In this document: one piece after another, positions 18,678 to 34,043 of the stretch
Layout of the letters: every line of letters starts with the position of its first letter
How positions within the stretch are numbered: position 1 is the stretch's first letter
DNA from: Patiriisocius marinus
Lineage (GTDB): Bacteria > Bacteroidota > Bacteroidia > Flavobacteriales > Flavobacteriaceae
Reading direction: 5' to 3'
Length of the DNA stretch: 64,000 nucleotides
Assembly: GCF_008974325.1 (NCBI RefSeq)
Contig: NZ_BKCG01000002.1
Coordinates: 186,001 to 250,000 of the forward strand
Notes under the pieces: generated by a model
The model's input: the letters and a program-made list of their open reading frames with translations, nothing else
Database searches by the model: none
Told to the model about the DNA's origin: nothing
Program-made: the position numbers and the translations under genes

Positions 18678-21035
18678 ATGGAATCTTTTCCACTTCAAAT
18701 AGAAGTTAGTTTTAAGAAAGTCTTCGATCAATATCGTACAAGACTGGAATCTGACAATCGTTTTGTGAAAGAACGAGCGACTTCAATTTTAGAAATTGCA
18801 GATACTTATCCAGCATTAACTACAGGGATTTCAGATGAAGTTTTATTGGCCTCTTTTCACGAACAAATTGATCTAGTTCTAGAAGATATGTTTTCGTCGA
18901 TTTTAGAGACAAATGAAATTAAAATTGCTACGCTGCCTTATAACGGCCTTATTTTTAAGTCGTCAAAGCGATATGATAATATTATAGAAGCTGCAGGACC
19001 AGGTTTTAAAGCGGAACTAAACCACTTTAATGAAGACGAGTTTTATAAACTTGGATGTATTTTAATTACAAACTTCTATTACGGTTATCAGGCCGATTTT
19101 AGAAGACCAATCTATTATAAAATTCCAGATGCTAATGGAATTATCAGAACCTACAGATTAGTATATAATGCTGATTTTGTAGATATTCAAAAAACAAAAG
19201 AAGCACCAGAATTTACAAATAAAGATTTTGAAGAGTTACTTGATAACTTCGATAACCTAAGTTTATGGAAGGAAAAATTTCCGCCAGAGAGTTATATATT
19301 TAGTGGTTTTGTAATAGCGAACTTATTTGATGCTACCGCAGATACTAACATAGCAGATTTTAAAGCACTTCTTTTAGAAAAGGAAGAGCATAGCGGTATT
19401 CTTGAAGATCGTTTTACTGATATTTTTAAATCATTATTTAATTGTTCTAATCTAAAAATAGGTTTTTCAACTTTTAATGAAGAAGAAGATTCGTTAGAAC
19501 AAATATTGTTTGACAGTGTTAAAAGTTACGTTTTAGAGGGGGCTTCTCATATTAAAAGCAACGAAGCATTATGTCAAACATCATACTATACGCTATTTAA
19601 AAAGAATGAATTTTATACTATTTCTAACGTAAGTAAATATCACAAACTATACCCAGATAATATATTATATAAAAAATTAGCTAAGCAAAAAATTGAAAGT
19701 GCCATATTAGCACCTATTGTTGATAATGGAAAATTAATTGGAATTATGGAGCTTGTATCTCCTACGGTAAATATGCTAAATTCTATTAATGCTAATAAAT
19801 TGAAGGATATTATGCCTTATCTAGAGGTATATATTATTCAATCTAATAATCGTTTGGACAGTGAGTTAGAGCTGATAATACAGGAAGAATGCACTTCAAT
19901 TCATAAAAGTGTTCATTGGAAATTTAAACAAGAAGCTGCACGATATTACAAAGCAGTTTCTAATGGAAACCCAGCTCTTTTTAGAGAAGCCGTTTTTGAT
20001 GATGTGTATCCATTATTTGGACAAATAGATATTAAAGGTTCTTCGGAAGCAAGAAATAATGCTGTTAGAGATGATTTAGAATTACAACTAAACCACGTAT
20101 TACAAATAGTAGATAAGATTAGTATTGTTGAAGAGCTGCCAATTTACGAGCAGTTAAGTTTCAGAATCAATGAATTTTTAGATGATGTTAAATTTAACTT
20201 TCAAGTTGATAGTGAACGTTCCGTTTTAAAATTTCTGAAATCTGAAATAATTCCTCTTTTTAAGCATTTGTCTAAAAAGAACGATGCCTTAAAGCAATTA
20301 ATAACTGATTACAGATCATTAGTTGACAGTGGAACTGGCTTTGTCTACAAACACAGAAAAGATTATGATGATTCAGTCACGCAAATAAACAGGCGTATGG
20401 CATCAGTTCTAGACAAAAAACAAAAGGACGCTCAAAAAATGTATCCACATTACTTTGAACGTTTTAAAACTGATGGAGTAGAGCATAATATGTATATTGG
20501 AGAATCTATTACTAAAAAAAATAGCTTCAATAAAGTTTACCTTTATAATTTGCGATTATGGCAATTGCAAGTGATGTGCGAAATGGAAAATAGTTATTAT
20601 AAACTAAAAGAAAACCTTGAAGTACCACTTGATGTTGCCTCAATGATTTTGGTTTTTAATAGCCCATTATCATTACGTTTTAGAATGGATGAAAAACGTT
20701 TTGATGTTGATGGAACATATAACGCACGTTACGAAGTAATTAAAAAACGAGTAGATAAAGCAAATATTAAAGGAAAAGACGAGCGTATTACCCAAGCCGG
20801 TAAAATCGCTATTATCTATTCTCAAAAAGAAGACGAGAAAGAATACCTTAAGTACATTAAGTTTTTACAGATGAAAAAACACCTCGATACTGAAGTTGAA
20901 ATTTTGGAGCTTGAAGATTTACAAGGTGTAACAGGACTTAAAGCAATTAGAGTAAAAGTGTTATATACTAGGGGTAAAGAACAAACTAAAGAATATTACA
21001 CGTACGAAGATTTAATGGAGCAAATAAAACACTAA
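18678..21035 (+). CDS. GAF-domain protein of unknown role
   Basis: A 785-residue cytoplasmic protein. A GAF-like sensory domain is seen at about 245-395 (SAILAPIVDNGKLIGIMELVSP is the characteristic strand pair). The N-terminal 230 residues and the long, charged, helical C-terminal half (400-785) have no recognisable catalytic motif. It has no kinase, cyclase or HTH domain. Proteins of this architecture are common in Flavobacteriaceae. It is followed by a strong terminator. Confidence 0.8.
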   Translation: MESFPLQIEVSFKKVFDQYRTRLESDNRFVKERATSILEIADTYPALTTGISDEVLLASFHEQIDLVLEDMFSSILETNEIKIATLPYNGLIFKSSKRYDNIIEAAGPGFKAELNHFNEDEFYKLGCILITNFYYGYQADFRRPIYYKIPDANGIIRTYRLVYNADFVDIQKTKEAPEFTNKDFEELLDNFDNLSLWKEKFPPESYIFSGFVIANLFDATADTNIADFKALLLEKEEHSGILEDRFTDIFKSLFNCSNLKIGFSTFNEEEDSLEQILFDSVKSYVLEGASHIKSNEALCQTSYYTLFKKNEFYTISNVSKYHKLYPDNILYKKLAKQKIESAILAPIVDNGKLIGIMELVSPTVNMLNSINANKLKDIMPYLEVYIIQSNNRLDSELELIIQEECTSIHKSVHWKFKQEAARYYKAVSNGNPALFREAVFDDVYPLFGQIDIKGSSEARNNAVRDDLELQLNHVLQIVDKISIVEELPIYEQLSFRINEFLDDVKFNFQVDSERSVLKFLKSEIIPLFKHLSKKNDALKQLITDYRSLVDSGTGFVYKHRKDYDDSVTQINRRMASVLDKKQKDAQKMYPHYFERFKTDGVEHNMYIGESITKKNSFNKVYLYNLRLWQLQVMCEMENSYYKLKENLEVPLDVASMILVFNSPLSLRFRMDEKRFDVDGTYNARYEVIKKRVDKANIKGKDERITQAGKIAIIYSQKEDEKEYLKYIKFLQMKKHLDTEVEILELEDLQGVTGLKAIRVKVLYTRGKEQTKEYYTYEDLMEQIKH

Positions 21036-21057
21036 AACTTTCATTTACATTCTTAAA

Positions 21058-21110
21058 ACCGCGATTAAAATATCTATAATATTGATATTTTAATCGCGGT
21101 TTATTATTTA
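21058..21110 (+). terminator. Terminator of the GAF gene
   Basis: A perfect 17-bp stem (21058-21074 with 21084-21100, nine-base loop) is followed by TTATTATTT, 22 bases after the stop at 21035. Confidence 0.85.
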
Positions 21111-21199: not shown

Positions 21200-21234
21200 G
21201 TTACAACTGAAACCCTACATTTGACAGTTCAGTA
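21200..21234 (+). promoter_or_regulatory. Candidate LytTR operator before the TonB receptor gene
   Basis: Half-site TTGACAGTTCAGTA (21221-21234) has a degenerate partner GTTACAACTGAAAC (21200-21213), with ACA in register 21 bp apart. They sit 45 and 66 bp upstream of CAATTTTG (21266-21273), a -7-like box 20 bases before the start at 21294. The same two distances occur at the other two sites near 23477 and 26015. A TACATTTG at 21216-21223 overlaps the site and is an alternative -7 box. Confidence 0.5.
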
Positions 21235-21293
21235 ATTTGTTTTCTAAAATTAGACTTTGTTGAAGCAATTTTGTTTTAACAAACAACCACGTT

Positions 21294-23465
21294 ATGATTT
21301 ACAACAATTCAAAAGTCTCATTAAGTATTTTTTTCATCAGTTTATTCTCGATATTATCACTGTCTGCGCAAACAGTAATATCTGGAAAAGTTTCTGAAAA
21401 AAACGGTACGCCTATAGAAGGAGCTAATGTCTATTTAGATGGTACTTACGACGGTACAGCGACAGATGCTCAAGGAAATTTTAGTTTTGAAACCGAAGAA
21501 AAAGGTCCGCAATTAATTAAAGTTACATTTTTATCTTTTGAGCCCTACACCTTCTTTGGAGATGTGAAAATTTTAAATAATCTAAAAATAAAATTAAGAG
21601 AAGATGTTAACTCTCTAGAAACAGTAGTGTTATCTGCAGGTACTTTAGAAGCTAGTGATAATAGTAAAGTTTCAGTATTAAAACCTCTCGATGTAGTTAC
21701 AACTGCAAGTGCTCTTGGCGACTTTGTAGGAGCTTTACAAACCTTGCCAGGAACAACTACAGTCGCAGAGGATGGAAGACTATTTGTAAGAGGTGGAGAT
21801 GCTAGTGAAACACAAATATTTATTGACGGCATTAGAGTTTTTACACCTTATACACCTACAACTAATAACGCTCCCACAAGAGGACGATACAGTCCGTTTT
21901 TATTTGACGGTATTACTTTTTCTACAGGTGGTTACTCAGCTGAATTTGGACAAGCATTATCATCAGTTTTACTGTTAAATAGTATTGATGAGCCAGCACA
22001 AGAGGCAACTAATATTCAAATTATGAGTGTTGGAGGCGGATTTGGACACACTGAAAAATGGGATAAATCTTCATTAAGTATTAATACATCTTATATTAAT
22101 TTGGCTCCTTATTTAGCATTATTTAATAGTCGAAATGATTTTCAGAAACCATTTCAAACCTTTTCTGGTGAAGCCGTCTATAGACAAAAGTTAAAAAATG
22201 GCCTGTTAAAAGTTTACGGTGCTTTCGACACGTCAAATTTCTCCTTAACTCAAGAGGATATTAATAATCCCGATGGAACGCAATTTAGCTTAAACAATAA
22301 AAATTTCTATGGAAACACTAGTTATAGTGGCGTTTTAACTAACGATTTAAAAATTGATGTTGGAGCAAGTTATACATTAGCAACAACTGAAATAGGTATA
22401 AATAATATAACAGTTGATGATACAGAAAACTCAGCACACTTTAAAATAAAGCTAAAAAACCGATTTAGTAATCGTTTTAAATTAACAGGAGGAGTAGAGC
22501 AATTTATAACTGATTTTGAAGAGCAAGTATCGGGTGATTTTAATCCTCAAGAGTACGGTTACAAAAATAACCTCACAGCAGCTTTTGCTGAGACGGACAT
22601 TATTTTCTCGAGAAATTTTGCCATTAAAACTGGTTTGCGAGTAGAGTATAGCGCTATGTTTAATGATATTACAATTGCCCCAAGACTTTCATTAGCTTAT
22701 AAAACGGGAAAAAATAGTCAGCTTTCCATTGCCTACGGAAATTTTAATCAACAACCCAATGCTGAAATTTTAAAATTTGAACAAAACTTAAGAGCAAGAA
22801 ATACCAGTCATTACATTGCAAATTATCAATACACCGCAAACAACCGAATATTTAGAGCTGAATTATATAGAAAAGATTATACTAATCTAGTAACATACGA
22901 TACGACTACAGCGAGTTCAGAATCAAATTTTACTAATAATGGAGATGGATATGCACAAGGATTAGATGTGTTTTTTCGTGATGATGAGTCAATTAAAAAT
23001 TTAGACTACTGGGTAAGTTATAGCTACTTAGATTCTGAAAGAAAATTTCAGAATTACCCTATTGAAGCAACACCTTCGTTTGCATCAAAACATAATGCTT
23101 CAGTTGTAACTAAATATTGGGTTGAAAAATGGCAAAGCCAGATAGGAGCAAGTTATACGTACGGGAGTGGTCGAAGTTATACCAACCCCAATGAACCAGG
23201 TTTTCTACAAGAACAAACACGAGCTTTTAATAGTTTAAGTTTAAACTGTGCGTATTTAATTACGCCTCAAAAAATAGTATACGCTTCAGTAAACAATGTG
23301 CTTGGGTTCAATAATATAAATGGGTATCAATATGCAAATACGCCAAATGCAAGCGGTCAATTTAATCGTCAGGCATTATTACCAGCGACAGATCAGTTTT
23401 TCTTTGTAGGATTCTTTTGGACAATAAGTGATGATGGTAAGGAAAATCAATTAGACAATCTATAA
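21294..23465 (+). CDS. TonB-dependent receptor with carboxypeptidase-like N-terminal domain
   Basis: This 723-residue outer-membrane receptor has a signal peptide ending near residue 26 (LSLSAQT), a carboxypeptidase-like regulatory domain (GKVSEKNGTPIEGANVYLDG, about 27-110), a plug region containing LQTLPGTTTVAEDGRLFVRGGDASETQIFIDG, and a beta-barrel ending in FFVGFFWTISDD. It is somewhat shorter than classical siderophore receptors. The substrate is unknown. No SusD partner follows. The promoter carries the direct repeat also found before the two LytTR-module operons, so it is probably a target of that regulator. Confidence 0.93.
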   Translation: MIYNNSKVSLSIFFISLFSILSLSAQTVISGKVSEKNGTPIEGANVYLDGTYDGTATDAQGNFSFETEEKGPQLIKVTFLSFEPYTFFGDVKILNNLKIKLREDVNSLETVVLSAGTLEASDNSKVSVLKPLDVVTTASALGDFVGALQTLPGTTTVAEDGRLFVRGGDASETQIFIDGIRVFTPYTPTTNNAPTRGRYSPFLFDGITFSTGGYSAEFGQALSSVLLLNSIDEPAQEATNIQIMSVGGGFGHTEKWDKSSLSINTSYINLAPYLALFNSRNDFQKPFQTFSGEAVYRQKLKNGLLKVYGAFDTSNFSLTQEDINNPDGTQFSLNNKNFYGNTSYSGVLTNDLKIDVGASYTLATTEIGINNITVDDTENSAHFKIKLKNRFSNRFKLTGGVEQFITDFEEQVSGDFNPQEYGYKNNLTAAFAETDIIFSRNFAIKTGLRVEYSAMFNDITIAPRLSLAYKTGKNSQLSIAYGNFNQQPNAEILKFEQNLRARNTSHYIANYQYTANNRIFRAELYRKDYTNLVTYDTTTASSESNFTNNGDGYAQGLDVFFRDDESIKNLDYWVSYSYLDSERKFQNYPIEATPSFASKHNASVVTKYWVEKWQSQIGASYTYGSGRSYTNPNEPGFLQEQTRAFNSLSLNCAYLITPQKIVYASVNNVLGFNNINGYQYANTPNASGQFNRQALLPATDQFFFVGFFWTISDDGKENQLDNL

Positions 23466-23476
23466 ATAAATGTAAT

Positions 23477-23511
23477 TTGACATTTCAGTATCTAAAAACT
23501 ACACTTCGGTA
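23477..23511 (+). promoter_or_regulatory. Candidate LytTR operator before the DUF2141-TPR-kinase operon
   Basis: TTGACATTTCAGTA (23477-23490) and ACTACACTTCGGTA (23498-23511) are direct half-sites (9 of 14 matching) 21 bp apart. They lie 66 and 45 bp before the -7-like CATCTTTG (23543-23550). The second half overlaps a small hairpin AACTAC/GTAGTT, so part of its match could reflect that structure. Confidence 0.55.
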
Positions 23512-23586
23512 GTTATAAGTTTAGGACAAGGTGGTAATGAAGCATCTTTGTATTGTAATTAATATCAACCTTTAAATTCTTTTATA

Positions 23587-24003
23587 ATGCAAACAGTAAT
23601 CACATCTCTCGTTTTATTTTTCACAGGGCTTGTTTTACAAGCACAAGTAAATACAGTGGAAGTAACAATAACAAATTTTGATTCTAATGAAGGGCACGCT
23701 TTAGTCGCAATTTATGATAGCGAAGCAAATTTTCTAAACAAACGCTTATTAGGTGTAGTAGCAACTATAAGTAATAATACTGCGGTTTGCACATTTGCAG
23801 ATCTTCCAGATGGAGTATATGCAGTTTCTGCATTTCATGATGAGGATACGGATGGAAAATTAAATATGATGATGGGTTTTTATCCTACGGAAGATACGGC
23901 AACATCTAATAACGCTCCAGCTAATTTTGGGCCACCAACTTGGGAGGATGCAAAATTTGAAGTTAAAGGCGGAAAAGTAATTTCGCAGAAAATTTCTATG
24001 TAA
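23587..24003 (+). CDS. Secreted DUF2141 protein
   Basis: A 138-residue protein with a signal peptide (cleavage near LVLQAQ, residue 19) and a single DUF2141 domain: VEVTITNFDSNEGHALVAIYDSE, LPDGVYAVSAFHDEDTDGKLN and the closing F-x-P region. DUF2141 proteins are small periplasmic or surface proteins of unknown function. It starts a likely three-gene operon with the TPR-like gene 31 bp downstream and then the sensor kinase, putting a secreted protein under the same control as the kinase. Confidence 0.9.
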   Translation: MQTVITSLVLFFTGLVLQAQVNTVEVTITNFDSNEGHALVAIYDSEANFLNKRLLGVVATISNNTAVCTFADLPDGVYAVSAFHDEDTDGKLNMMMGFYPTEDTATSNNAPANFGPPTWEDAKFEVKGGKVISQKISM

Positions 24004-24034
24004 TTTTAAAGCAATAAGAACTAAAAGCACGAAT

Positions 24035-24661
24035 ATGAAAGCAATAATATATATCACTACAGTATTAATTAGTTTAACGAGTTTTGCGCAGTCGCCTTAT
24101 GAGAAAGGGATGACAAAGGCTTTAGGACTTTGGTCTGAAGGAAATTCAACCGAAGCAGTACAATTATTTGAACGTATAAGTTCAGCAGAACCAGAGGAGT
24201 GGCTTCCTTCTTTTTATGCAGCACAGATATTAACGTATTCAAGTTTTGGAGAAAAGGATAAAGAGAAAGTGACCACTACATTAAATAAAGCTTTAGAATT
24301 AATGAATACGGCTAAAACTAATAGTCCTGAAAAAAATGCAGAGCTTATGGTTTTAGAAGCACAGTATTATACAAGTTGGATATCATTTGACGGTATGACA
24401 TATGGTATGAAATACGCAGGGAAAGTTGGAGAGTTATATCAAAACGCCTTAGCACTTGCACCAGATAACCCTCGTGTAGTTTTAGGTAAAGCTGAATGGG
24501 ATATGGGTTCAGCTGAATATTTTGGCGGAGATGTAAAGTCATATTGTAAGGATGTTGAGCGCGCTATCAAGCTGTTTAGCACCTTTCAACCTGAAAGTGT
24601 ACTTCATCCTAGTGGAGGATTAGAACATGCTCAAGAAGTATTAGCTAGAAGTTGTAACTAA
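24035..24661 (+). CDS. Secreted TPR-like protein
   Basis: The 208-residue protein has a signal peptide (MKAIIYITTVLISLTSFAQ) and helical repeats of TPR type: ALGLWSEGNSTEAVQLFERISSAEPEEWLP and a later repeat ending ALAPDNPRVVLGKAEWDMG. It probably acts in the periplasm in protein contacts. The stop and the next start overlap by one base (TAATG), so translation is coupled to the sensor kinase. Function unknown. Confidence 0.85.
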   Translation: MKAIIYITTVLISLTSFAQSPYEKGMTKALGLWSEGNSTEAVQLFERISSAEPEEWLPSFYAAQILTYSSFGEKDKEKVTTTLNKALELMNTAKTNSPEKNAELMVLEAQYYTSWISFDGMTYGMKYAGKVGELYQNALALAPDNPRVVLGKAEWDMGSAEYFGGDVKSYCKDVERAIKLFSTFQPESVLHPSGGLEHAQEVLARSCN

Positions 24662-25995
24662 TGAATAAAGTATTAAAGGAAATTAGTAAGGGATTCTTTA
24701 TTGGGTTGATGGTATTTATCGTTGTCTCATTAATAGAATATGTCAATGGGTATAATATAGTAACCTCTGGTAAATTTTGGGAGCGTTTCACATTTAATCA
24801 GATATATTCATTAGTTCTTTATTTATCAAATGGGGCATATTTTATGTATTTGCTAAAAACCTTTGAAAGTAAATTGTTCGATTTAAAAAACCTTTCTAAA
24901 GGTATTTTTGGTGGGATTATTATCACGTTAGTTTGTATTGCATTACTGCGTTTTGTAACTGAGGTTGTGTACTTAGGAAAATCGTTTGAGTTGTTTCTTG
25001 AGAATGAAAAAATAGGGTATTATTATATTTCATTTATAATATCGGCAGTTGTTACTTCTATGTTCTATGCGGTTTATTATTATAAATATCGCCAGGAACA
25101 AAAAGTAACCGAACAAAAAATAATTGCTGGTACTGCTTCAGCTAAATTCGATGCTTTAAAAAATCAATTAGATCCGCATTTTCTATTTAATAGCTTAAAT
25201 GTACTCACTAGTTTAATTGAAGAAAATCCTAGAGCTGCAACTAAGTTTACGACATCACTTTCTAAAGTATATCGTTATGTGTTAGAGCAAAAAAATAAAG
25301 ATTTAGTGACCGTTGTTGAGGAGTTAAAATTTGCAAAGCTTTATATGTCATTACTAGAAATGCGCTTTGAAGAAAGTATTGTATTTACAATTCCTGAGAC
25401 GCTAAGTAATCCAGAAGCGAAAGTAGTTCCATTAGCATTACAGCTAGTATTAGAAAATGCCGTGAAGCACAATCAAGTGATGCCTTCTAAAAAATTACAT
25501 ATAACCATTACTGAAAAAAATGGAAATCTTGTAGTTGAAAATAACTTACAACCTAAACAAGTAGTAAAGGATAGTAGTGGAGTAGGTTTACAAAATATCA
25601 AACAACGGTATCAATTACTTACAAATAAACCTGTAGTAATTAAAAAAACGGAAACTCATTTTAGCATAGCAATACCTATGCTATCTAAACTTATTATTAT
25701 GAATTCACAGGATAGTTATATATCAGAAAAAAAATTAGAACTAGCTAAGGAGCGTGTTCAAAAAATTAAAGGATTTTACGTTCATTTTGCAATTTATCTT
25801 TGTTTCATTCCTATATTTTTATGGTTGTATTTTCAATCTAACGCAGATTTTCCTTGGGTAATTTTCCCAATAGGAGGTTGGGGTTTTGGAGTAGCATCAC
25901 ATGCTAGCGAAGTATTTGATTATAACCCATTTTTTAGTAAAGACTGGGAACGACGTAAAATTAGAGAACTAATGGATAAAGATGATGAGCTTTAA
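24661..25995 (+). CDS. LytS/YehU-type sensor histidine kinase fused to a C-terminal 2TM domain
   Basis: The 444-residue protein has four N-terminal membrane segments (about 12-30, 47-66, 82-101, 121-141). A His_kinase (LytS-type) domain follows with DPHFLFNSLN (phospho-acceptor His173), an N-box LVLENAVKHN and a G-box SSGVGLQNIKQRY. From about residue 347 there is a complete 2TM domain (ERVQKIKGFYVHFAIYLC...FSKDWERRKIRELM), homologous to the two separate 2TM genes downstream. The junction contains an internal MNSQD that looks like an old start codon, suggesting fusion of adjacent genes. Partner of the LytTR regulator at 26809. Confidence 0.93.
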   Translation: MNKVLKEISKGFFIGLMVFIVVSLIEYVNGYNIVTSGKFWERFTFNQIYSLVLYLSNGAYFMYLLKTFESKLFDLKNLSKGIFGGIIITLVCIALLRFVTEVVYLGKSFELFLENEKIGYYYISFIISAVVTSMFYAVYYYKYRQEQKVTEQKIIAGTASAKFDALKNQLDPHFLFNSLNVLTSLIEENPRAATKFTTSLSKVYRYVLEQKNKDLVTVVEELKFAKLYMSLLEMRFEESIVFTIPETLSNPEAKVVPLALQLVLENAVKHNQVMPSKKLHITITEKNGNLVVENNLQPKQVVKDSSGVGLQNIKQRYQLLTNKPVVIKKTETHFSIAIPMLSKLIIMNSQDSYISEKKLELAKERVQKIKGFYVHFAIYLCFIPIFLWLYFQSNADFPWVIFPIGGWGFGVASHASEVFDYNPFFSKDWERRKIRELMDKDDEL

Positions 25996-26014
25996 AAATG
26001 AATTAATAATGAAA

Positions 26015-26049
26015 TTGACATTTCAGAATTGAAAATTGACATTTCAGTA
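26015..26049 (+). promoter_or_regulatory. Candidate LytTR operator before the 2TM-2TM-LytTR operon
   Basis: TTGACATTTCAG occurs twice in direct repeat (26015-26026 and 26036-26047), exactly 21 bp apart. The sites are 66 and 45 bp upstream of the -7-like TATTTTTA (26081-26088). The ten-base core GACATTTCAG with an 11-bp spacer closely resembles the GGCATTTCAT-N11-GGCATTTCAT site reported for the E. coli LytTR regulator YpdB (recalled from the literature). This would make the operon autoregulated. Confidence 0.65.
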
Positions 26050-26114
26050 TAAGGCTTTTTAGAAGATGATATAGTGGCAGTATTTTTATACTATAATCAT
26101 TAATCAATTTAATT

Positions 26115-26808: not shown

Positions 26809-27564
26809 ATGAACGTAATAATCATTGAGGACGAAAAGCCAAGTGCTCGCCGTTTACAACGAATGTTAGAAAGAATAGATATTAACGTAAATACAATGCT
26901 CCACAGCGTGCAGGAATCTATTGTTTGGTTTAATGAAAACGAACATCCAGATCTTATTTTTTTAGATATTCAACTTAGTGATGGTTTATCATTTGAAATA
27001 TTTGAACAAGTTTCGGTAAAGAGTTCAATAATCTTCACAACAGCTTTTGACGAGTATGCCTTACAAGCTTTTAAACTTAATAGTATTGATTATTTACTAA
27101 AGCCTATTGATGAAGACGAATTAGAAACTGCTGTAAAACAATTTAAAGACGTGAGGCCAGTTTCAAGTAATGTTCAGATTAATTTTGAGGATATTAAAAA
27201 ACTACTTACAAATCCTGTAGACAGAGAATATAAAAAGCGTTTTACCACTAAAATAGGGCAACATATAAAAATGATTCCTGTAGATGAAATAGAGTGTTTT
27301 TATAGCGAAAATAAAGGTACCTATGCACATACTATTGATGGAAGAGATTATTTGTTAGATACTACTTTAGAGCTTTTAGAGGCAGAATTAGAGCCTGCAT
27401 TATTTTTTAGAATTAGTCGTAAATTCTATATTAATATAAATGCTATTAAGGACATTATATCGTACACTAATTCTAGACTTCAATTAAAACTCAACAATTA
27501 TAAAGAACAAGATATAATTGTAGCCAGAGAACGCGTTAAAGATTTTAAAGTTTGGTTAGAGTAA
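26809..27564 (+). CDS. LytTR-family response regulator
   Basis: The 251-residue protein has a receiver domain (IIIEDEKPSARR at 4-15, phospho-acceptor Asp53 in FLDIQLSDG, KPIDEDEL near 105) and a C-terminal LytTR DNA-binding domain (about 148-251; FTTKIGQHIKMIPVDEIECFYSENKGTY, FFRISRKFYINI). It follows the 2TM genes by 41 bp. It should be the output of the LytS-type kinase at 24661, and the direct repeats at 21200, 23477 and 26015 are its predicted binding sites. Confidence 0.95.
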   Translation: MNVIIIEDEKPSARRLQRMLERIDINVNTMLHSVQESIVWFNENEHPDLIFLDIQLSDGLSFEIFEQVSVKSSIIFTTAFDEYALQAFKLNSIDYLLKPIDEDELETAVKQFKDVRPVSSNVQINFEDIKKLLTNPVDREYKKRFTTKIGQHIKMIPVDEIECFYSENKGTYAHTIDGRDYLLDTTLELLEAELEPALFFRISRKFYININAIKDIISYTNSRLQLKLNNYKEQDIIVARERVKDFKVWLE

Positions 27565-27606: not shown

Positions 27607-28803
27607 CTATTTACTAATCCTATTTTCATCAAAAGCTGATGGTAGTAATTTTGGAATGAATTTTACTAGTAGTGGTAGGAGTATAGTCCCTCCAGGAAGT
27701 ATAAAAATTGTTAGTGAAGGAATCGATTTACAGATGTCAAGTAATTGGTCTTTTACTTTTTCTTTCTCTTCCTTTGATAAATCACGGTGCGTTGAAACTC
27801 CCAGTAACTTAATTAATTCACCACTTTCTTTTAACTCAAGTACAAGCCTATCTTTATTTCGTAAAATTAGTTTCTTCACGGTATGAGAAGATTGCTTATA
27901 AAATTGTTTTACAGGCGTTGAATGTTCAAACAAAGTTGTTTTAACTAAGCTTGAAGCATTAAAGTCCCTAATATAAACCATACTGTCTTTCCAACTATCT
28001 GCTGAAATATTAAGGAGAACACATAAGTTATTTAAAAATGCAGATTCATCATCATCAACGTCTCTGTCTTCCCAAACAGCAAGACAACACACATCTAGAA
28101 TATATTTTCTTTCTATTGGATTATCTGTAGTGGAGCAAAACTCTGTAACCGATTTTTGAAAAGATTGATACTTAATCATATATTCGGCTGAGGTGTCAAA
28201 TAAATCAATTAATAAATGGTCATATTTCTTTTTCTTCTTTTTAGCTTTTAAAGCAAGATACGCACTAGAAATAACGTGATCCTCTAATGAGGTAGCAAAC
28301 TTTTTAATATCTGAGCTATATTGAAGATATTGATCAAACGCAAGAATATCAATAAATAATAAAGCATGTGTAAGTAGTGAAATTGCTTTAGACTTATAAA
28401 GTGAGTTAGATTCTTGTAACCTTCTAGAAAGAATTTGCTCTAACTGAGAACTTGGAGTACTATTTATTGAAAAGTTTTTAAAAAAACTACTTTTTCTTTT
28501 TTCTAATTCGCTGTAAAATTTTAATATTTCGGCTATGCCATCTTCCGTTGTATTATGAGGTCGTTTAACGGCATATACATAAATAAGAGAATAAAATAAG
28601 TTAAGTTTCGTTAACTCATCTGCGGTCATTTTCAATGTTACTTTAGGAAGAGGTACAATTAATGAAACCGAATTTCCATAAATAAAACCACTGCGACGCA
28701 CTGCATTATAAAAGGCGTCGTTTGATGAAAAAACGCTAGAAACGTGCAAGTCATCAACATAACTTAAAAATTTCGGGATCCAGTCTTTAGCAGATGGGTT
28801 CAT
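27607..28803 (-). CDS. LETM1-related protein
   Basis: The 398-residue protein resembles the flavobacterial LETM1-related biofilm-associated family. Its C-terminal segment SIPSLTIFILPGGTILLPLLVKFIPKLLPSAF is similar to the LETM1 membrane-proximal region. The N-terminal 330 residues are helical and soluble, with a TerB-like acidic stretch (CCLAVWEDRDVDDDESAFLNNLC, about 248-270). There is no signal peptide. The biofilm connection comes from family naming and is not seen here. It converges with the LytTR gene. Confidence 0.8.
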   Translation of the reverse strand: MNPSAKDWIPKFLSYVDDLHVSSVFSSNDAFYNAVRRSGFIYGNSVSLIVPLPKVTLKMTADELTKLNLFYSLIYVYAVKRPHNTTEDGIAEILKFYSELEKRKSSFFKNFSINSTPSSQLEQILSRRLQESNSLYKSKAISLLTHALLFIDILAFDQYLQYSSDIKKFATSLEDHVISSAYLALKAKKKKKKYDHLLIDLFDTSAEYMIKYQSFQKSVTEFCSTTDNPIERKYILDVCCLAVWEDRDVDDDESAFLNNLCVLLNISADSWKDSMVYIRDFNASSLVKTTLFEHSTPVKQFYKQSSHTVKKLILRNKDRLVLELKESGELIKLLGVSTHRDLSKEEKEKVKDQLLDICKSIPSLTIFILPGGTILLPLLVKFIPKLLPSAFDENRISK

Positions 28804-28965: not shown

Positions 28966-29688
28966 ATGAAAAAAACAAAACTTTTTGCAGCTATAGGCGG
29001 AGTTGGGCTTGTGCTCGCATCTGTCTTTTTAATTGCTGCAGATCACGTTGATGCTCCAGCAGTTGCGGGAACAACAACTGACATTGCAGATTTATATGCT
29101 TTTGAAGGGGATAACCCAAACAACACGGTATTAATTGCAACGGTACAAGGACCATTAGCTCCAGGAGATCAATCTAACAATGCGCAGTTTGATGAAGATG
29201 TAATGATCCAGTTTAATATAGATTTAGATAATGATTTTATTGAAGACAGAGTAATCCAAGCAGTAAAGCGAGGAGATTCTATGTATTTCTTTGGACCAGC
29301 TGAACCAGCTATCACAGGACTAAATAGTACAGTTGCAACTTTTGCAACACGTACTGCGGTTAAAATTTCTACTGCAGATGATGTTCAAACTGCCGTTAGC
29401 GAAAACGGAATGAGTGTTTTTGCAGGACCAAGAAGAGACGCTTTTTACTTCGATTTTAATCGTTTTAACATGGTAGTTTCAGGTGCAGTTGCTCCAGAAG
29501 GTTTTTTACCTCCAGCAGAAGCTAGTGACTTTTTCGAGAACTTAAATGTATTAGCCTTAACAGTAGAAGTGCCTAATGCACTTTTAGGTGAAGCGCCTGT
29601 GCATATTGCTGAAGCGGCAGGATTAGTTGATCCGGGAGTATTACCTTCTACATACAATGTATGGGCAACAGCAAATAGAAAACAATAA
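28966..29688 (+). CDS. DUF4331 protein, N-terminal-half type
   Basis: A 240-residue secreted protein with a signal peptide ending near residue 25 (LIAADHVDAP is the conserved start of the mature DUF4331 domain). It shows DIADLYAFEGDNPNNTVLIATVQGP and DAFYFDFNRFN and ends with WATANRKQ. The usual C-terminal half of DUF4331, starting with the MGRPxIN motif, is absent here but present in the next gene 21 bp downstream. No frameshift is seen: each gene has its own signal peptide and stop. Function unknown. Confidence 0.9.
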   Translation: MKKTKLFAAIGGVGLVLASVFLIAADHVDAPAVAGTTTDIADLYAFEGDNPNNTVLIATVQGPLAPGDQSNNAQFDEDVMIQFNIDLDNDFIEDRVIQAVKRGDSMYFFGPAEPAITGLNSTVATFATRTAVKISTADDVQTAVSENGMSVFAGPRRDAFYFDFNRFNMVVSGAVAPEGFLPPAEASDFFENLNVLALTVEVPNALLGEAPVHIAEAAGLVDPGVLPSTYNVWATANRKQ

Positions 29689-29709
29689 AAAATTATAAAA
29701 CGAAAAAAG

Positions 29710-30405
29710 ATGAAAACATATAAATTAAGATTATTATTCGTTGCTATTTGTACTTCCCTATTGTTTGTAGGTTGTAATGATGATGACGATAACGGAAATA
29801 TCATTGAAGTAGCCACTTGTGATGATGGAGAAATGAACGGTGATGAAACTGGTATTGATTGTGGTGGTTCTTGTGAACCTTGTAATGAAGCTTTAGACTT
29901 TTCAGGAACATACGTTCAAGAAGATAGTATGGGACGACCAGGAATCAATACAGTTTTTAGCGGTTCAGATGCTGTAAAGAATGATTTCAATAATACAATC
30001 CCTTCAGATAGAGCTGCTTTCACGCCTATATTTGAAAATACATTAGAGTTTTATCACGATGTGTATGCATTATCATTAGGTTTAACGGAAGATGATATTG
30101 ATTATGAAACTAATATTTTAGGTCTAGATGCACCTACTTTAGCATTTGTATTAGCTCAAACTGATGCATTGCAAGTAGCACCTAATGCACCTACATCTTA
30201 TTTTACTCCTGGTGGAACTTTTCTAACAGGAAGAAACTTAAGTGATGATGTGATTGATGTTTCATTAATATTGATGTTTGGTGGAGAAATGGGTAACCGT
30301 TTTGACGGTAACAATGGAACACCGCAACTTACAAGTGATGGGGTAGATGCTGGAGATCGTGACTTTACAGGTGGTTTTCCTTATTTAGAGACTCCTAATC
30401 TGTAA
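29710..30405 (+). CDS. Lipoprotein carrying the C-terminal half of a DUF4331 domain
   Basis: The 231-residue protein has a lipobox LLFVGC (Cys22), an acidic spacer, and a CDDGEMNGDETGIDCGGSC-x2-C motif (residues 37-58) of the type common in Bacteroidota surface proteins. It then has MGRPGINTVF, GRNLSDDVIDVSL and GGFPYLETPNL, which correspond to the second half of DUF4331. With the preceding gene it makes up one domain on two polypeptides. Ends with its own terminator. Confidence 0.85.
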   Translation: MKTYKLRLLFVAICTSLLFVGCNDDDDNGNIIEVATCDDGEMNGDETGIDCGGSCEPCNEALDFSGTYVQEDSMGRPGINTVFSGSDAVKNDFNNTIPSDRAAFTPIFENTLEFYHDVYALSLGLTEDDIDYETNILGLDAPTLAFVLAQTDALQVAPNAPTSYFTPGGTFLTGRNLSDDVIDVSLILMFGGEMGNRFDGNNGTPQLTSDGVDAGDRDFTGGFPYLETPNL

Positions 30406-30428
30406 TTGTATCACCTAATAAAATTTTA

Positions 30429-30460
30429 GAAAAGAGCAAGCAATTGCTCTTTTCTTGTTT
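30429..30460 (+). terminator. Terminator of the DUF4331 pair
   Basis: GAAAAGAGCAA (30429-30439) and TTGCTCTTTTC (30444-30454) form a perfect 11-bp stem with loop GCAA, followed by TTGTTTT. It lies 24 bases after the stop at 30405. Confidence 0.8.
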
Positions 30461-30488
30461 TAAAATTATTCAACTAATTATACCTACT

Positions 30489-31781
30489 ATGAAATATTAT
30501 CCAGCTTTATTAATAGCGCTTTCAGCATTCGTGTTTTCATGTACTACAAAAGAGGAAATAACAATTGTGACCAACACAGCTGACTATGAAAAATATTTAG
30601 AAGCTGACCAAGATGCTACACTTAAATCTGCAATTGCAGAAAGAGATTTTTGGTCTAAGCGTTTAGATGTTGATTCAACGGGAATAGGCGATTTAGGTCC
30701 GCTTGCAGGAGCTTATACTCGTATTTTTGAAGCAAATGGCGAAGTATCAAATCTAAAAAATGCCGAAATTCTCTATAAAAAAGCAATTTCAGTTGCATCA
30801 CCATCACTAAAGGATGCTTACATACGCTCATTGTCTCACAATTACATTTCGCAACATAAGTTTAAAGAAGCTAATAATTTATTAGAAGAAAGCTACTCAG
30901 GACCTTCAAATAAGCACGCAACAGAGTTAATGCTTTTTGATAGTTATATGGAAACGGGTGAGTATAAAAAAGCGAAAACTATTCTTGAAAAACTTAAAAA
31001 CGAATCGGATTATAACTATTTGATTAGGGTATCTAAATGGAGTGATCACAATGGTGATTTAGCAGCAGCAATTAGATATCTAGAAAAAGCACGTGACATA
31101 GCAGAATCCAGAAATAGTAAGCCACTTAAAATATGGACCTATTCAAATATAGCAGATTACTATGGTCACGACGGAAATATTAAAGCGTCATACAATCACT
31201 TTTTAAAAACACTAGCGCTACAACCAGATAACGCCTATGCCAAAAAAGGAATTGCTTGGATTTTATACTCAAGTGAAAGAAATACTCTTGAAGCAAACCG
31301 CATTGTAGATTCGTTAATAGTACATCATGATATTCCAGATTACTATTTATTAAAATCTGAGTTTGCTGAATACGATGGAGATGAAGTTTCTGCTAATACA
31401 TACAAAGAAAAATTTATTGCAAAAGCAGAAAATCCTGCTTATGGAGGTATGTATAATGCCTACCTTATTGAAGTACTTGCCGAAAGTAATCCAGAAAAAG
31501 CACTGAATATAGCCAAACAAGAAATAGAAAATAGAGCGACACCAGAAACATATCATCTACTAGCGTTTGCACAACTTAAAAACGGAATGAAAGATGAAGC
31601 GCTGCATACCATTGAAAGTAATGTGGAAGGTAAAACAAGTGAACCTATGGCTTTATTGCATAGTGCACAAGTGTATAAAGTAAATGGACTTAGTGATAAA
31701 GTGGGCCTAATAAAAGAAGACTTACTTGAAGCAACGTATGAATTAGGTCCATTATTAGCTGCTGAGGTAAAGTCACTATAA
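30489..31781 (+). CDS. TPR lipoprotein
   Basis: A 430-residue lipoprotein (lipobox AFVFSC, Cys18) built of tetratricopeptide repeats, e.g. LEESYSGPSNKHATELMLFDSYMETGEYKKAKTILEKL and NHFLKTLALQPDNAYAKKGIAWILYSSERN. I start it at the ATG at 30489; an upstream in-frame start at 30444 falls inside the terminator hairpin and would spoil the signal peptide. It follows the DUF4331 genes and may serve with them in an envelope assembly. Function unknown. Confidence 0.9.
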   Translation: MKYYPALLIALSAFVFSCTTKEEITIVTNTADYEKYLEADQDATLKSAIAERDFWSKRLDVDSTGIGDLGPLAGAYTRIFEANGEVSNLKNAEILYKKAISVASPSLKDAYIRSLSHNYISQHKFKEANNLLEESYSGPSNKHATELMLFDSYMETGEYKKAKTILEKLKNESDYNYLIRVSKWSDHNGDLAAAIRYLEKARDIAESRNSKPLKIWTYSNIADYYGHDGNIKASYNHFLKTLALQPDNAYAKKGIAWILYSSERNTLEANRIVDSLIVHHDIPDYYLLKSEFAEYDGDEVSANTYKEKFIAKAENPAYGGMYNAYLIEVLAESNPEKALNIAKQEIENRATPETYHLLAFAQLKNGMKDEALHTIESNVEGKTSEPMALLHSAQVYKVNGLSDKVGLIKEDLLEATYELGPLLAAEVKSL

Positions 31782-31918
31782 TTTCTATTTTCTTTATTTA
31801 AAAACCACATATCAAATTTATACGTAAGTATTATTGAAAAGAAGTTCCTATCATATGTGTGTGTGATAGATACTTTAATCAGATAATTCTGGTTTTTCAG
31901 AGGTTTTTTGTTAGTTGA

Positions 31919-31947
31919 GCGTCTTCATACAATGAAGGCGTTTTTTT
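31919..31947 (+). terminator. Terminator downstream of the TPR lipoprotein gene
   Basis: GCGTCTTCAT (31919-31928) pairs with ATGAAGGCG (31932-31940, one G-U) and is followed by seven T at 31941-31947. Confidence 0.75.
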
Positions 31948-31964
31948 ATATCTTATAAAATAAG

Positions 31965-31991
31965 AAACGCCCTCAATAGTAGAGAGCGTTT
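31965..31991 (-). terminator. Terminator of the sigma/anti-sigma operon
   Basis: AAACGCCCTC (31965-31974) and GAGAGCGTTT (31982-31991) pair with one mismatch. On the minus strand the stem is followed by TTTCTTATTTTAT, 20 bases after the stop at 32012. Confidence 0.6.
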
Positions 31992-32011
31992 ATATTTGTG
32001 TTCTATTACTT

Positions 32012-32803
32012 TTAAGGAGCTACTGTTCCTAAAGTATATAATTGTGATAGCGTAGGGGATTCACTTCCACCAGCAGGTTCTAATGTAATTCCAAAAGCCT
32101 GAGATATTGCAGGTATTGTATTAAATTTATATAAATCTTCCCCAGCAATTGAAGTTACATCAATTAGTCCAATACTCGTAGGAGTAAGAGGATCGAGAAC
32201 TAATGACCATACCTGGTAAACTTTACCTTCCGGAGCTTTAGGTAGACCTTTTACATCTATATATGCAACAGCATCTGTTTTATTGTAAAGTACTTTACTG
32301 AATGCTTGTGGAGCGACAGCTTGATTTCCAGGTAATACTATTGTATTAAAATCTTTAGATCTTAAAATTTCTAAAACATTTTCATGTGCTAGAACAGTTT
32401 TACTTGCTTCATTAATCTTCTCTTTAAGTACAGTATTTTCTTCTTCAGTTAAAAGTATATTTTCTTTTAAATCCCCATTTTGGTTTAGCATCCAGAAAAT
32501 TCCTCCTAAACATATTATAGCGGCTGCCCATCCTGTTATTGCAGGCCAGTTAGTACTGCGATTAGTTTGTAAATTTCTCACGGGACGAATTGTAGCAAGT
32601 ACTCGAGCCCAAACATTATTTGAGATCATAGGAGCAGTATTTTTAGATAACTCCATTAAAGATTGCTCAATGTTTTCTACTTCACGTTTTACTTCAGCAT
32701 TAGTATTAATGGCAGCCGTTATGTTTTTATGCTCTTCATCAGCTAGCGCTCCACAAACGTAGAGTTCTAAAATACCAGATGTTATCAGTTCTTGTGGTGT
32801 CAT
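32012..32803 (-). CDS. Anti-sigma factor (RskA-like)
   Basis: The 263-residue protein has an N-terminal zinc-less anti-sigma helical region (residues 1-55; LITSGILELYVCGALADEEHKNI), a membrane segment at about 88-106, a periplasmic coiled coil (108-145) and a C-terminal RskA domain (VYQVWSLVLDPLTPTSIGLIDV...FGITLEPAGGSESPTLSQL). It should hold the ECF sigma factor encoded immediately upstream (3 bp gap) at the membrane. The signal and regulon are unknown. Confidence 0.93.
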   Translation of the reverse strand: MTPQELITSGILELYVCGALADEEHKNITAAINTNAEVKREVENIEQSLMELSKNTAPMISNNVWARVLATIRPVRNLQTNRSTNWPAITGWAAAIICLGGIFWMLNQNGDLKENILLTEEENTVLKEKINEASKTVLAHENVLEILRSKDFNTIVLPGNQAVAPQAFSKVLYNKTDAVAYIDVKGLPKAPEGKVYQVWSLVLDPLTPTSIGLIDVTSIAGEDLYKFNTIPAISQAFGITLEPAGGSESPTLSQLYTLGTVAP

Positions 32804-32806
32804 AAT

Positions 32807-33337
32807 TTATAAAACGTTAGATTGCAATTGTTTAATACAATTTCTATTCCTTGTTTTTAAAGTTCCTAACGGAATTTCAAGTTGTTCAGCAGCATCTTTT
32901 TGAGTAAACCCTTTAAAATAAAGCAAATCAATAATTTTAATGCAAACAGGTTTTAAAGCATCAACAAATTTTCTAATTCCTATGGCATTTGTACTTTGAT
33001 TTAAACTATCTGAACCACTTAATATATCTACGAAATTTGTAGTGCTTAGGTTTTTTCTAGAGTTTTTAAAGGCTTTTGATCTAGTTCTATCAATTGAAGT
33101 ATTTCTTGCAATATTTAAAGCCCAAGTAAAAAAGCGACCTTTATCGATATCATAACTAGATTTATTGTTCCATATTTTAATAAAAACATCTTGTAGCGTT
33201 TCTTCTGCAATATCACTCTCTTTTAAAATGCTATATACAATACCATAAAGTGCTTCTGAATACATAGAATAAATTCTAGCAAACGCTTTCTCATCGCCGT
33301 TTTGCATTTCTAGTATTAACTCGTTAGGTTGGTCCAT
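32807..33337 (-). CDS. ECF-type RNA polymerase sigma factor
   Basis: The 176-residue protein has region 2 (ARIYSMYSEALYGIVYSIL, EETLQDVFIKIWNNKSSYD, FFTWALNIARNTSIDRTRS) and region 4 (CIKIIDLLYFKGFTQKDAAEQLEIPLGTLKTRNR). It groups with the SigK-like ECF sigma factors that pair with RskA anti-sigma factors. Three bases separate it from the anti-sigma gene. No autoregulatory promoter is obvious. Confidence 0.95.
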   Translation of the reverse strand: MDQPNELILEMQNGDEKAFARIYSMYSEALYGIVYSILKESDIAEETLQDVFIKIWNNKSSYDIDKGRFFTWALNIARNTSIDRTRSKAFKNSRKNLSTTNFVDILSGSDSLNQSTNAIGIRKFVDALKPVCIKIIDLLYFKGFTQKDAAEQLEIPLGTLKTRNRNCIKQLQSNVL

Positions 33338-33401
33338 TTAATACGTTTTATTAATTGAAACTATTTTTACTATGTTTATATACCACTAAATTTTGTAGCA
33401 T

Positions 33402-33438
33402 AAAAAAAGGTTTAATATTTAATAATATTAAACCTTTT
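33402..33438 (-). terminator. Terminator of sodC
   Basis: A perfect 15-bp stem (33405-33419 with 33424-33438, loop TAAT) follows the sodC stop by 18 bases. On the minus strand it is followed by a run of T (33408-33402). Confidence 0.85.
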
Positions 33439-33455
33439 AAAGTTTATTTTCAGAG

Positions 33456-34043
33456 TTATTGAATGATACCACCGCAGCTCACACGAGCTCCTGCAGCACC
33501 AGAAGGTTGAGATGTAAAATCATCTTTTCCTTGGTGAACAATAATTGCTTTACCTAAAATATTTTTAGTTTCATCATCACAGCCTATACACCATTCGTTA
33601 GTTGACATACTAATATTACCCTTTCCATCTTCACCAACATTAAAGTTACCAATATCCCCTTTGTGATATCCAGTTTCGTCACCCCATTTACCATGGTCTT
33701 TAAAAGTTGGGTTCCAGTGTCCTCCAGATGATTTACCGTCATCTGATGAGCAATCTGCTTTTTCATGAATATGAATAGCATGTACTCCAGGTTCTAATCC
33801 CGTCAATGATGCTTGGAACATTACTTGATCTCCTTTTTGTACAAAAGTTACTTCACCTTTTGCATCACTGCCACTTTTGCTTTCTAGAGCAAATGAAACT
33901 GTTTTAGAGTATTTTTCAGGAGTTTCTTTAACTTCAGTTTCAGTTTTTACTACTTCTTCAACTTCTTCTTTTTTAGTTTCTTCTTTACAACTTGTGAATG
34001 CTAATAAACTTATAGACATTGCGAGGTATATATACTTTTTCAT
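33456..34043 (-). CDS. sodC: Cu/Zn superoxide dismutase, lipoprotein form
   Basis: SodC converts superoxide to oxygen and hydrogen peroxide in the cell envelope. The 195-residue protein has a lipobox LAFTSC (Cys19), a Glu/Lys/Val-rich spacer and a full SOD domain. By alignment the copper ligands are His91, His93, His109 and His170; the zinc ligands His109, His117, His127 and Asp130; and the structural disulfide Cys98-Cys190. The closing QPSGAAGARVSCG is present. An additional CxxC (Cys152, Cys155; EWCIGC) in a surface loop is unusual for the family. Confidence 0.96.
   Translation of the reverse strand: MKKYIYLAMSISLLAFTSCKEETKKEEVEEVVKTETEVKETPEKYSKTVSFALESKSGSDAKGEVTFVQKGDQVMFQASLTGLEPGVHAIHIHEKADCSSDDGKSSGGHWNPTFKDHGKWGDETGYHKGDIGNFNVGEDGKGNISMSTNEWCIGCDDETKNILGKAIIVHQGKDDFTSQPSGAAGARVSCGGIIQ

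Follow-up and report, generated by a model that had tools for sequence, protein, structure and literature searches.

A direct-repeat operator at a fixed distance from a weakened -7 box marks a putative self-activating LytS/LytTR regulon in Patiriisocius marinus and related Flavobacteriaceae

Three promoters in a 64-kb stretch of the Patiriisocius marinus genome (assembly GCF_008974325.1, contig NZ_BKCG01000002.1, positions 186,001 to 250,000, forward strand; hereafter the window, in whose coordinates positions are given) share a direct-repeat operator placed at one fixed distance from a -7-like box. They precede a TonB receptor gene, a DUF2141-TPR-kinase gene group and a 2TM-2TM-regulator gene group, the last two of which encode a LytS-type histidine kinase and a LytTR response regulator. 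We consider it highly probable (about 0.87) that these elements constitute a two-component system that activates its own genes along with a few envelope genes. Sequence alone shows the module and its fixed geometry, how it is conserved, its association with the regulator gene across genomes, and the targets that it precedes. This is a real regulon, and the system is of a known kind.

When the window (32.3% G+C) was searched for ACAnnT[CG]-N14-ACAnnT[CG], exactly three matches were obtained, all on the + strand, with the first and second ACA at 21203/21224, 23480/23501 and 26018/26039, i.e., with half-sites 21 bp apart. The first ACA lies 91, 107 and 97 bp before the ATG codons at 21294, 23587 and 26115, respectively, and the -7-like boxes at 21266, 23543 and 26081 each begin exactly 63 bp past it. 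The elements are as follows:

21203-21232, + strand: operator A, ACAACTGAA (21203-21211) and ACAGTTCAG (21224-21232), preceding the TonB-receptor gene
21266-21273, + strand: -7-like box A, CAATTTTG, one base off TAnnTTTG; predicted start site 21278 (A)
23480-23509, + strand: operator B, ACATTTCAG (23480-23488) and ACACTTCGG (23501-23509), 14 bp past the receptor stop codon
23543-23550, + strand: -7-like box B, CATCTTTG; predicted start site 23555 (G)
26018-26047, + strand: operator C, ACATTTCAG (26018-26026) and again ACATTTCAG (26039-26047), 22 bp past the kinase stop codon
26081-26088, + strand: -7-like box C, TATTTTTA; predicted start site 26093 (A)

A first-pass annotation of this DNA had already proposed three promoters with a common direct repeat at a fixed distance from the box, and the window pattern, simulations and relatives described here confirm that proposal in a stronger form than was claimed. 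The spacings of 66 and 45 bp given there were counted from 3 bp 5' of each ACA and describe a geometry identical to the +63 used here, while the exact GACATTTCAG pair holds for site C only and not for A or B. As to chance, 200 first-order Markov sequences yielded the repeat alone at a mean of 0.455 per window with a maximum of 3, which makes the three observed copies only modestly unusual, whereas the repeat with a box at that distance had a mean of 0.0 and a maximum of 0 against three observed. The earlier argument that equal spacing is unlikely to arise by chance is borne out for the repeat with its box. A chance origin of the sites was considered and rejected: the bare repeat is too common in one window to exclude it, and the box distance and the relatives settle the matter.

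A scan of GTDB genomes with the regulator protein returned 445 relatives, of which the best 80 loci were used (75-84% identity, 1.43 Mb; Aequorivita, Ulvibacter, Altibacter, Gilvibacter, Kordia, Maribacter, Aquimarina and Winogradskyella among them). On both strands of these loci the pattern matched 142 times, compared to 9 times for the reversed pattern. Strict pairs of ACA.TT[CG][AG] on the coding strand occurred 126 times at 21 bp and not once at any other spacing between 10 and 32, and none was found at 21 bp on the opposite strand. With the three from the window, 145 sites were available; 8 were left out (minus strand or no classified gene start nearby) and the remaining 137 were aligned on the first ACA. 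The alignment showed conservation of ACA.TT[CG][AG] at position 0 and of ACA.TT[CG][GA]G at +21 (G at +29 in 93%), the family consensus of a half-site being nearer TTACARTTSRG, followed by TT at +39/40 (91/98%), A at +64 (97%), TTT at +67-69 (98-99%), G (77%) or A (21%) at +70, and a purine at +75 (88%, 120/137). Information content does not exceed 0.16 bits at any position from +49 to +62, which shows enough divergence for the conserved matches to count.

The distance to the box was equally constrained. A..TTTG begins at +63 in 102 of the 137 sites, the next commonest position accounting for 5, and A..TTT[AG] does so in 131. Sorted by the class of the next gene, as assigned from best BLAST hits to the proteins of this genome, the box lies at exactly +63 in 38/41 receptor, 35/35 DUF2141, 28/28 TPR, 20/21 2TMa and 10/12 kinase-like promoters, this last class including, and mostly consisting of, small 2TM genes that resemble the kinase C-terminus. 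Among the 61 loci in which 7 kb or more of sequence precedes the regulator, 53 have one to three sites, and within 8 kb upstream a kinase gene is found in 58, any 2TM gene in 58, a TPR gene in 56, a receptor gene in 45 and a DUF2141 gene in 32; three of the eight loci without a site have no operon genes beside the regulator. Patiriisocius marinistellae (L037) and Ulvibacter litoralis (L038) have three sites apiece. Across the 80 loci the repeats are kept before orthologous genes, a point on which the first-pass annotation had made its proposal depend.

Next to conservation, the distribution of the site across genomes points to this regulator. The full pattern (both halves and the box, no mismatch) was searched in 148 genomes, our own and 147 relatives, and gave 123 sites vs. 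3 for the reversed control. It is present in 60 genomes; the family itself, represented by 89 genomes, accounts for 59. Taking as orthologue the best hit at 52% identity or more, a cut-off set after the hits had been seen, 58 genomes have both site and regulator, 6 the regulator only, 2 the site only and 82 neither (Fisher 1.6e-31, a p-value that overstates independence because of shared descent). Of the two genomes with the site only, G009 is a 59%-complete assembly; in G090 a regulator of 49% identity is preceded by the site at a distance of about 2 kb. In all six regulator-only genomes, one- or two-mismatch sites lie on the strand of the regulator, 0.8-3.4 kb before it (1.2-3.4 kb in G028, G031, G035, G052 and G071; 0.8 and 2.4 kb in G021), from a search that gave 20 matches vs. 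3 in the control, single two-mismatch hits being weaker evidence. Further, 17 of the 18 genomes that have LytTR matches at E 1e-40 but no orthologue lack the site, and in G064 the receptor and DUF2141 genes retain the sites although 250 kb separate them from the regulator. Since DUF2141 genes also occur in genomes with neither regulator nor site (e.g., G014, G016, G023, G062 and G074), the site follows the regulator and not the gene family. As co-occurrence, these data suggest that the module belongs with this regulator.

Some observations weigh against such a reading. Besides the late choice of the cut-off and the shared descent, the table becomes 59 both, 23 regulator only, 1 site only and 65 neither when every LytTR match at E 1e-40 is counted; 5 of the 61 loci carry the operon but no site, even by the loose pattern; operator B in the window itself is without the conserved T at +39; and a very similar operator stands at paralogous LytTR pairs, which makes cross-binding possible.

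The -7 box was compared with what is known of the phylum. In Flavobacterium johnsoniae, T-12, A-11, T-8, T-7, T-6 and G-5 of the -7 element are nearly invariant, G is practically absent at -10/-9, and 4-5 nt separate the box from the start in probable promoters (PMC6847099). Measured against TAnnTTTG, 123 of the 137 aligned boxes are exactly one base off and 10 are more, and the full element of primary-sigma promoters is present in only 4. The box thus looks like a weakened form of the Bacteroidota primary-sigma (-33/-7) promoter. The change falls mainly at -12, with G or C in 103/137: receptor and DUF2141/TPR promoters mostly have C or G there, while 2TM promoters mostly keep the T and end in A. 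At each of the two middle positions G occurs once in 137. Among AnnTTTG boxes, T at -12 is found in 4/102 of the regulon vs. 108/205 in the upstream regions of 547 other gene candidates from the same loci (Fisher 9e-20, inflated by shared descent), and in 3/41 at the sites classed outside the core locus (n = 50). Position +75 is the start predicted from a 4-nt gap, which would place the half-sites at about -75 and -54. A weak box may keep the promoter dependent on its activator, and the scarcity of T at -12 would then offer a testable signature of activator-dependent promoters in this phylum.

The genes downstream of the three operators, all on the + strand, encode the following products:

21294-23465, + strand: TonB-dependent receptor, 723 residues, CarbopepD_reg_2 and Plug domains (Pfam)
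23587-24003, + strand: DUF2141 protein, 138 residues, Pfam E 3.4e-28, signal-peptide-like N-terminus read from the sequence
24035-24661, + strand: TPR-like protein, 208 residues, TPR_19 at 23.1 bits (under the cut-off of 25), orthologues in relatives
24661-25995, + strand: LytS-like histidine kinase, 444 residues, PF06580 (1.3e-23) and PF13239, N-terminal membrane helices
26115-26423, + strand: 2TM protein a, 102 residues, PF13239, 41% identical to the kinase C-terminus over 90 residues
26426-26767, + strand: 2TM protein b, 113 residues, PF13239, 39% identical to the kinase C-terminus over 100 columns
26809-27564, + strand: LytTR response regulator, 251 residues, PF00072 (2.7e-14) and PF04397 (9.7e-21) (Pfam)

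These Pfam assignments bear out the earlier identification of 26809 as a LytTR regulator, through its receiver and LytTR domains, and of 24661 as a LytS-type kinase, through PF06580, as well as the statement that 2TM, DUF2141 and TonB receptor genes each follow an operator. The regulator has D8, E9, D53, T77/T78 and K98, which we take to be the usual receiver positions, and by sequence it matches PDB entries in the receiver domain only. The kinase is anchored in the membrane and of the PF06580 type. In an alignment of 44 kinases, which had been picked by length, the DPHFLFN stretch with H173 and the LENAVKHN stretch are largely invariant, H173 itself being invariant. Its C-terminus is a 2TM domain (PF13239) of the kind that the two 2TM genes encode in free-standing form; all 44 kinases have it, with W399, G406, W407, G408, W429 and E430 invariant. 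Pfam gave no match to a LytS-type 5TM sensor domain at E 0.001, and a structure model with a pTM of only 0.41 displayed long helices and no visible extracytoplasmic domain; a simple hydropathy scan found four clear membrane segments, fewer than the model helices suggest.

For the remaining proteins, NCBIfam gave no closer family name to any product of the operons, and phmmer found no PDB chain for the receptor at E 0.001. The N-terminus of the TPR-like protein is signal-peptide-like, as read from its sequence. The DUF2141 protein was modelled by AlphaFold as a confident predicted beta-sandwich (pLDDT 88.4), for which Foldseek returned nothing at E 0.001 or better (best 2.7e-3) and VIA-align gave as best hit 9c7u_B (Z 8.1, root-mean-square deviation 2.8 over 90 residues), close to many unrelated rows; by sequence, its PDB matches were at chance level. 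Comparison of the predicted structure gives no function for this protein.

Beyond the window, the genome has two further perfect sites, five in all. The one at C2:156483, on the minus strand, precedes a second DUF2141 gene (L160 5954-6376) unlinked to the window. The other, at C3:229167, is a full module before a second LytS/LytTR pair (L161 4295-6113, +); it has A at +29, like two other paralogue-adjacent sites, and was for that reason assigned to the paralogue. On our best reading, the regulon here would thus comprise four promoters: those of the TonB receptor, of DUF2141-TPR-kinase, of 2TM-2TM-regulator and of the second DUF2141 gene. A wider regulon in this genome was rejected, as two mismatches gave 109 matches vs. 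90 in the control and one mismatch gave three, and only perfect sites were used. Likewise, of the matches to the loose pattern (18 vs. 3 in the control), 13 failed the full pattern without mismatch and were treated as probable chance.

To describe the targets elsewhere, 100 of the 123 full-pattern sites were examined, the other 23 adjoining another site of the same core locus. The next gene was DUF2141b at 23 sites and DUF2141 at 10 (distant copies may fall in either class), TPR at 16, kinase-like at 11, receptor at 7, 2TM at 2 and a second kinase at 1; at 26 sites it had no BLAST match and at 4 no frame was found. By a rough pattern, 14 of these 26 precede head-GIN (DUF2807) lipoprotein genes in other genera, and Pfam confirmed head-GIN in both proteins of other genomes tested. 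At all 14, the stop codon of the upstream frame begins 2-87 nt before the first ACA, and in the three of the 14 tested this frame is PspC/LiaF-TM/Toastrack. Our genome also has PadR, PspC-Toastrack and head-GIN genes (L160 213-3073 on the minus strand, G000:C2), 5 kb from the second DUF2141 gene, and no perfect site was found at this operon. Rarer targets include a DUF2306-type membrane protein and a beta-lactamase-family protein, among others. At L136 (G043:C24) the operator precedes a gene whose product joins TPR-like and DUF2141 parts in one chain, a fusion that suggests that the two products work together. A carotenoid role of DUF2141 is a loose lead: two papers report its co-location with crtG in Sphingomonadales, and a third has it only as an entry in a correlation table. 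An ABA4-like membrane protein gene with the module (L167, G036:C2:473741, minus strand) was discounted as support for this lead because its site precedes, by 2.3 kb, a paralogous LytTR regulator.

From these data we propose the following model, in which binding, activation rather than repression, phosphotransfer, start sites, transcription units and the cell-envelope role are all predictions from sequence. A signal at the membrane would reach kinase 24661, which has no recognisable extracytoplasmic domain and for which the C-terminal 2TM domain would be a second anchor. The kinase would phosphorylate the LytTR regulator 26809, probably at D53, and the regulator would then bind two TTACARTTSRG half-sites 21 bp, or two helical turns, apart at about -75 and -54. 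From this position, just upstream of the -33 region, it could recruit primary-sigma RNA polymerase to the weak -7 box. As one copy of the operator stands upstream of the kinase gene and another upstream of the regulator gene, autoregulation is likely, as had been thought probable before; both units would be raised together on activation, giving positive feedback.

What the kinase senses is a matter of judgement. We lean, tentatively, towards the state of the envelope, because the targets are predicted outer-membrane proteins, secreted proteins or lipoproteins and because a PspC/Toastrack-adjacent gene is among them in several genera. The main alternative, a nutrient taken up by the receptor, for which pyruvate sensing by YpdA/YpdB would be a precedent, seems to us doubtful. 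We are similarly hesitant about a broader idea, namely a Flavobacteriaceae-wide envelope-state response that combines a LytTR two-component system with an LRS-like layer, in which the free-standing 2TM proteins, paralogues of the kinase C-terminus that share an operon with the regulator, dock on the kinase in the membrane as induced feedback brakes or co-sensors and weakening of the -7 box has been selected. If it were true, a one-base change in the -7 box would tune promoters to the regulator, and the regulon could be listed from sequence alone across members of the family.

We take ACAGTTCGG to fit the generic LytTR pattern, with AgrA-like 9-bp half-sites and a 12-bp spacer; AgrA of Staphylococcus aureus belongs to a different phylum and has different targets and a different kinase type. 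A LytTR site has been defined as two repeats of 9-11 bp that are 11-13 bp apart (PMC4847170), which is what the window and the relatives contain. The likeness to the Escherichia coli YpdB site noted before was substantiated: YpdB binds a direct repeat of GGCATTTCAT (PMC4847170), 8/10 identical to the best half-site of the window. YpdA/YpdB resembles the present system in its LytS-like kinase, its LytTR regulator and a direct repeat of 10-bp half-sites near the GACATTTCAG of site C. It differs in that the targets here are envelope genes and the system's own kinase and regulator, the kinase has a 2TM C-terminus and the promoters are of the Bacteroidota -7 type.

The LRS systems of Streptococcus mutans (HdrRM and BrsRM) share with ours direct repeats that serve autoregulation, are separated by 11-13 bp and lie about 10 bp before -35, and small membrane proteins encoded in the operon of the regulator (PMC6193735). 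However, LRS have neither a receiver nor a kinase gene, whereas here a receiver with D53 is present, 58 of 61 loci have a kinase gene in the 8 kb upstream, and the small proteins are 2TM (PF13239) rather than DUF3021/DUF2154. A likeness to PspC/Toastrack modules of the Lia/Psp type may be seen at 14 sites in other genera, where head-GIN genes follow the module and PspC is upstream in the three tested; Toastrack-LiaF operons of Firmicutes may also include a LytTR gene (PMC11237479). In contrast, the PadR-PspC-head-GIN operon of our genome is without a perfect site; pspA was not searched for. The available parts of PMC10197871, PMC10057207, PMC5395568 and PMC10269533 contain nothing on this system, and no description of the regulon was found in searches of an open-access library (subscription papers and supplements lying outside it), in agreement with the earlier remark that it is not known as described.

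Two features are not known to us from earlier descriptions: the fusion of the kinase to a 2TM domain whose paralogues are encoded alongside it, and a -7 box that is systematically weakened. Relative to the first-pass annotation, the analysis adds a probable fourth promoter (second DUF2141), a PspC-linked head-GIN member, the off-consensus -7 box and the 2TM-fused kinase. An operator is known, as far as we are aware, for few transcription factors of marine Flavobacteriaceae. Here, one pattern (halves 21 bp apart, box at +63) yields the operator, the targets and a predicted start site in 55 of the 113 genera searched and ties three little-studied families (DUF2141, 2TM and head-GIN/DUF2807) to one regulator. 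A small regulatory network thereby becomes readable from sequence, consisting of envelope genes and the genes for the sensor and regulator by which the switch is very probably operated.

The possibility that deserves most care is that several paralogous LytTR regulators per genome share the same sites, the module then being that of a sub-family. The second kinase-LytTR pair of this genome, with the full module at G000:C3:229167 and a regulator 40% identical to 26809, speaks for it, as do the sites in G036 (before the ABA4-like gene) and G086, each followed on the same strand by a paralogous LytTR gene, at 2.3 and 3.7 kb, respectively. We nevertheless regard it as unlikely, given that the site is missing from 17 of the 18 genomes whose only regulators are paralogues and that A stands at +29 in each of the three sites linked to paralogues, a position at which 93% of the core set carry G.

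Other objections concern how the promoters are read. If the operator were repressive, the regulator would hold the promoters off until the signal changed its state, and the LytTR family does include repressors, e.g., PlnD of Lactobacillus plantarum. Such an arrangement appears very improbable to us: upstream of the -33 region, the pair stops 9 bp short of the conserved TT at +39/40, a placement much like that of the S. mutans LytTR repeats that mediate activation, which lie 8 nt before -35 in hdrRM and show a strong 10-bp bias elsewhere (PMC6193735), and the weakened boxes fit activator dependence. Slightly less credible still is that boxes with G or C at -12, a position called a nearly invariant T in F. 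johnsoniae (PMC6847099), are read by an alternative sigma factor while the repeats serve something else. Those 103 of 137 boxes are its support; yet the other features of primary-sigma promoters are kept, namely A at -11, hardly any middle G (1/137 at each position), TTT and a start 4 nt on, and the alternative-sigma motifs of Flavobacterium psychrophilum SM4 (-24/-12), SM5 (TAnnTTGY) and SM6 (CGT box), compared by text description, do not match; SM1-3 are variations around TAnnTTTG (PMC9723704). Activation by the regulator through a primary-sigma promoter thus remains our preferred reading.

Around the regulon, a few neighbours were recorded. Directly upstream, 18678-21035 (+ strand) is an open reading frame of 785 residues with no Pfam match at E 0.001. 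Between it and operator A lies a long A/T-rich palindrome (21055-21105), terminator-like, which could insulate the receptor promoter; it is absent from the output of the terminator scan, and the sigma-70/terminator scan, which did not outperform shuffled sequence, was set aside. The gene at 27607-28803 (- strand) converges on the regulator gene and encodes a protein of 398 residues with a LETM1_RBD match, a homologue of which is found near the regulator in many relatives. Further downstream (28966-34043), two adjacent open reading frames match different parts of DUF4331 and are followed by genes for a TPR protein, an RskA-type anti-sigma factor with an ECF sigma factor, and a Cu/Zn superoxide dismutase.

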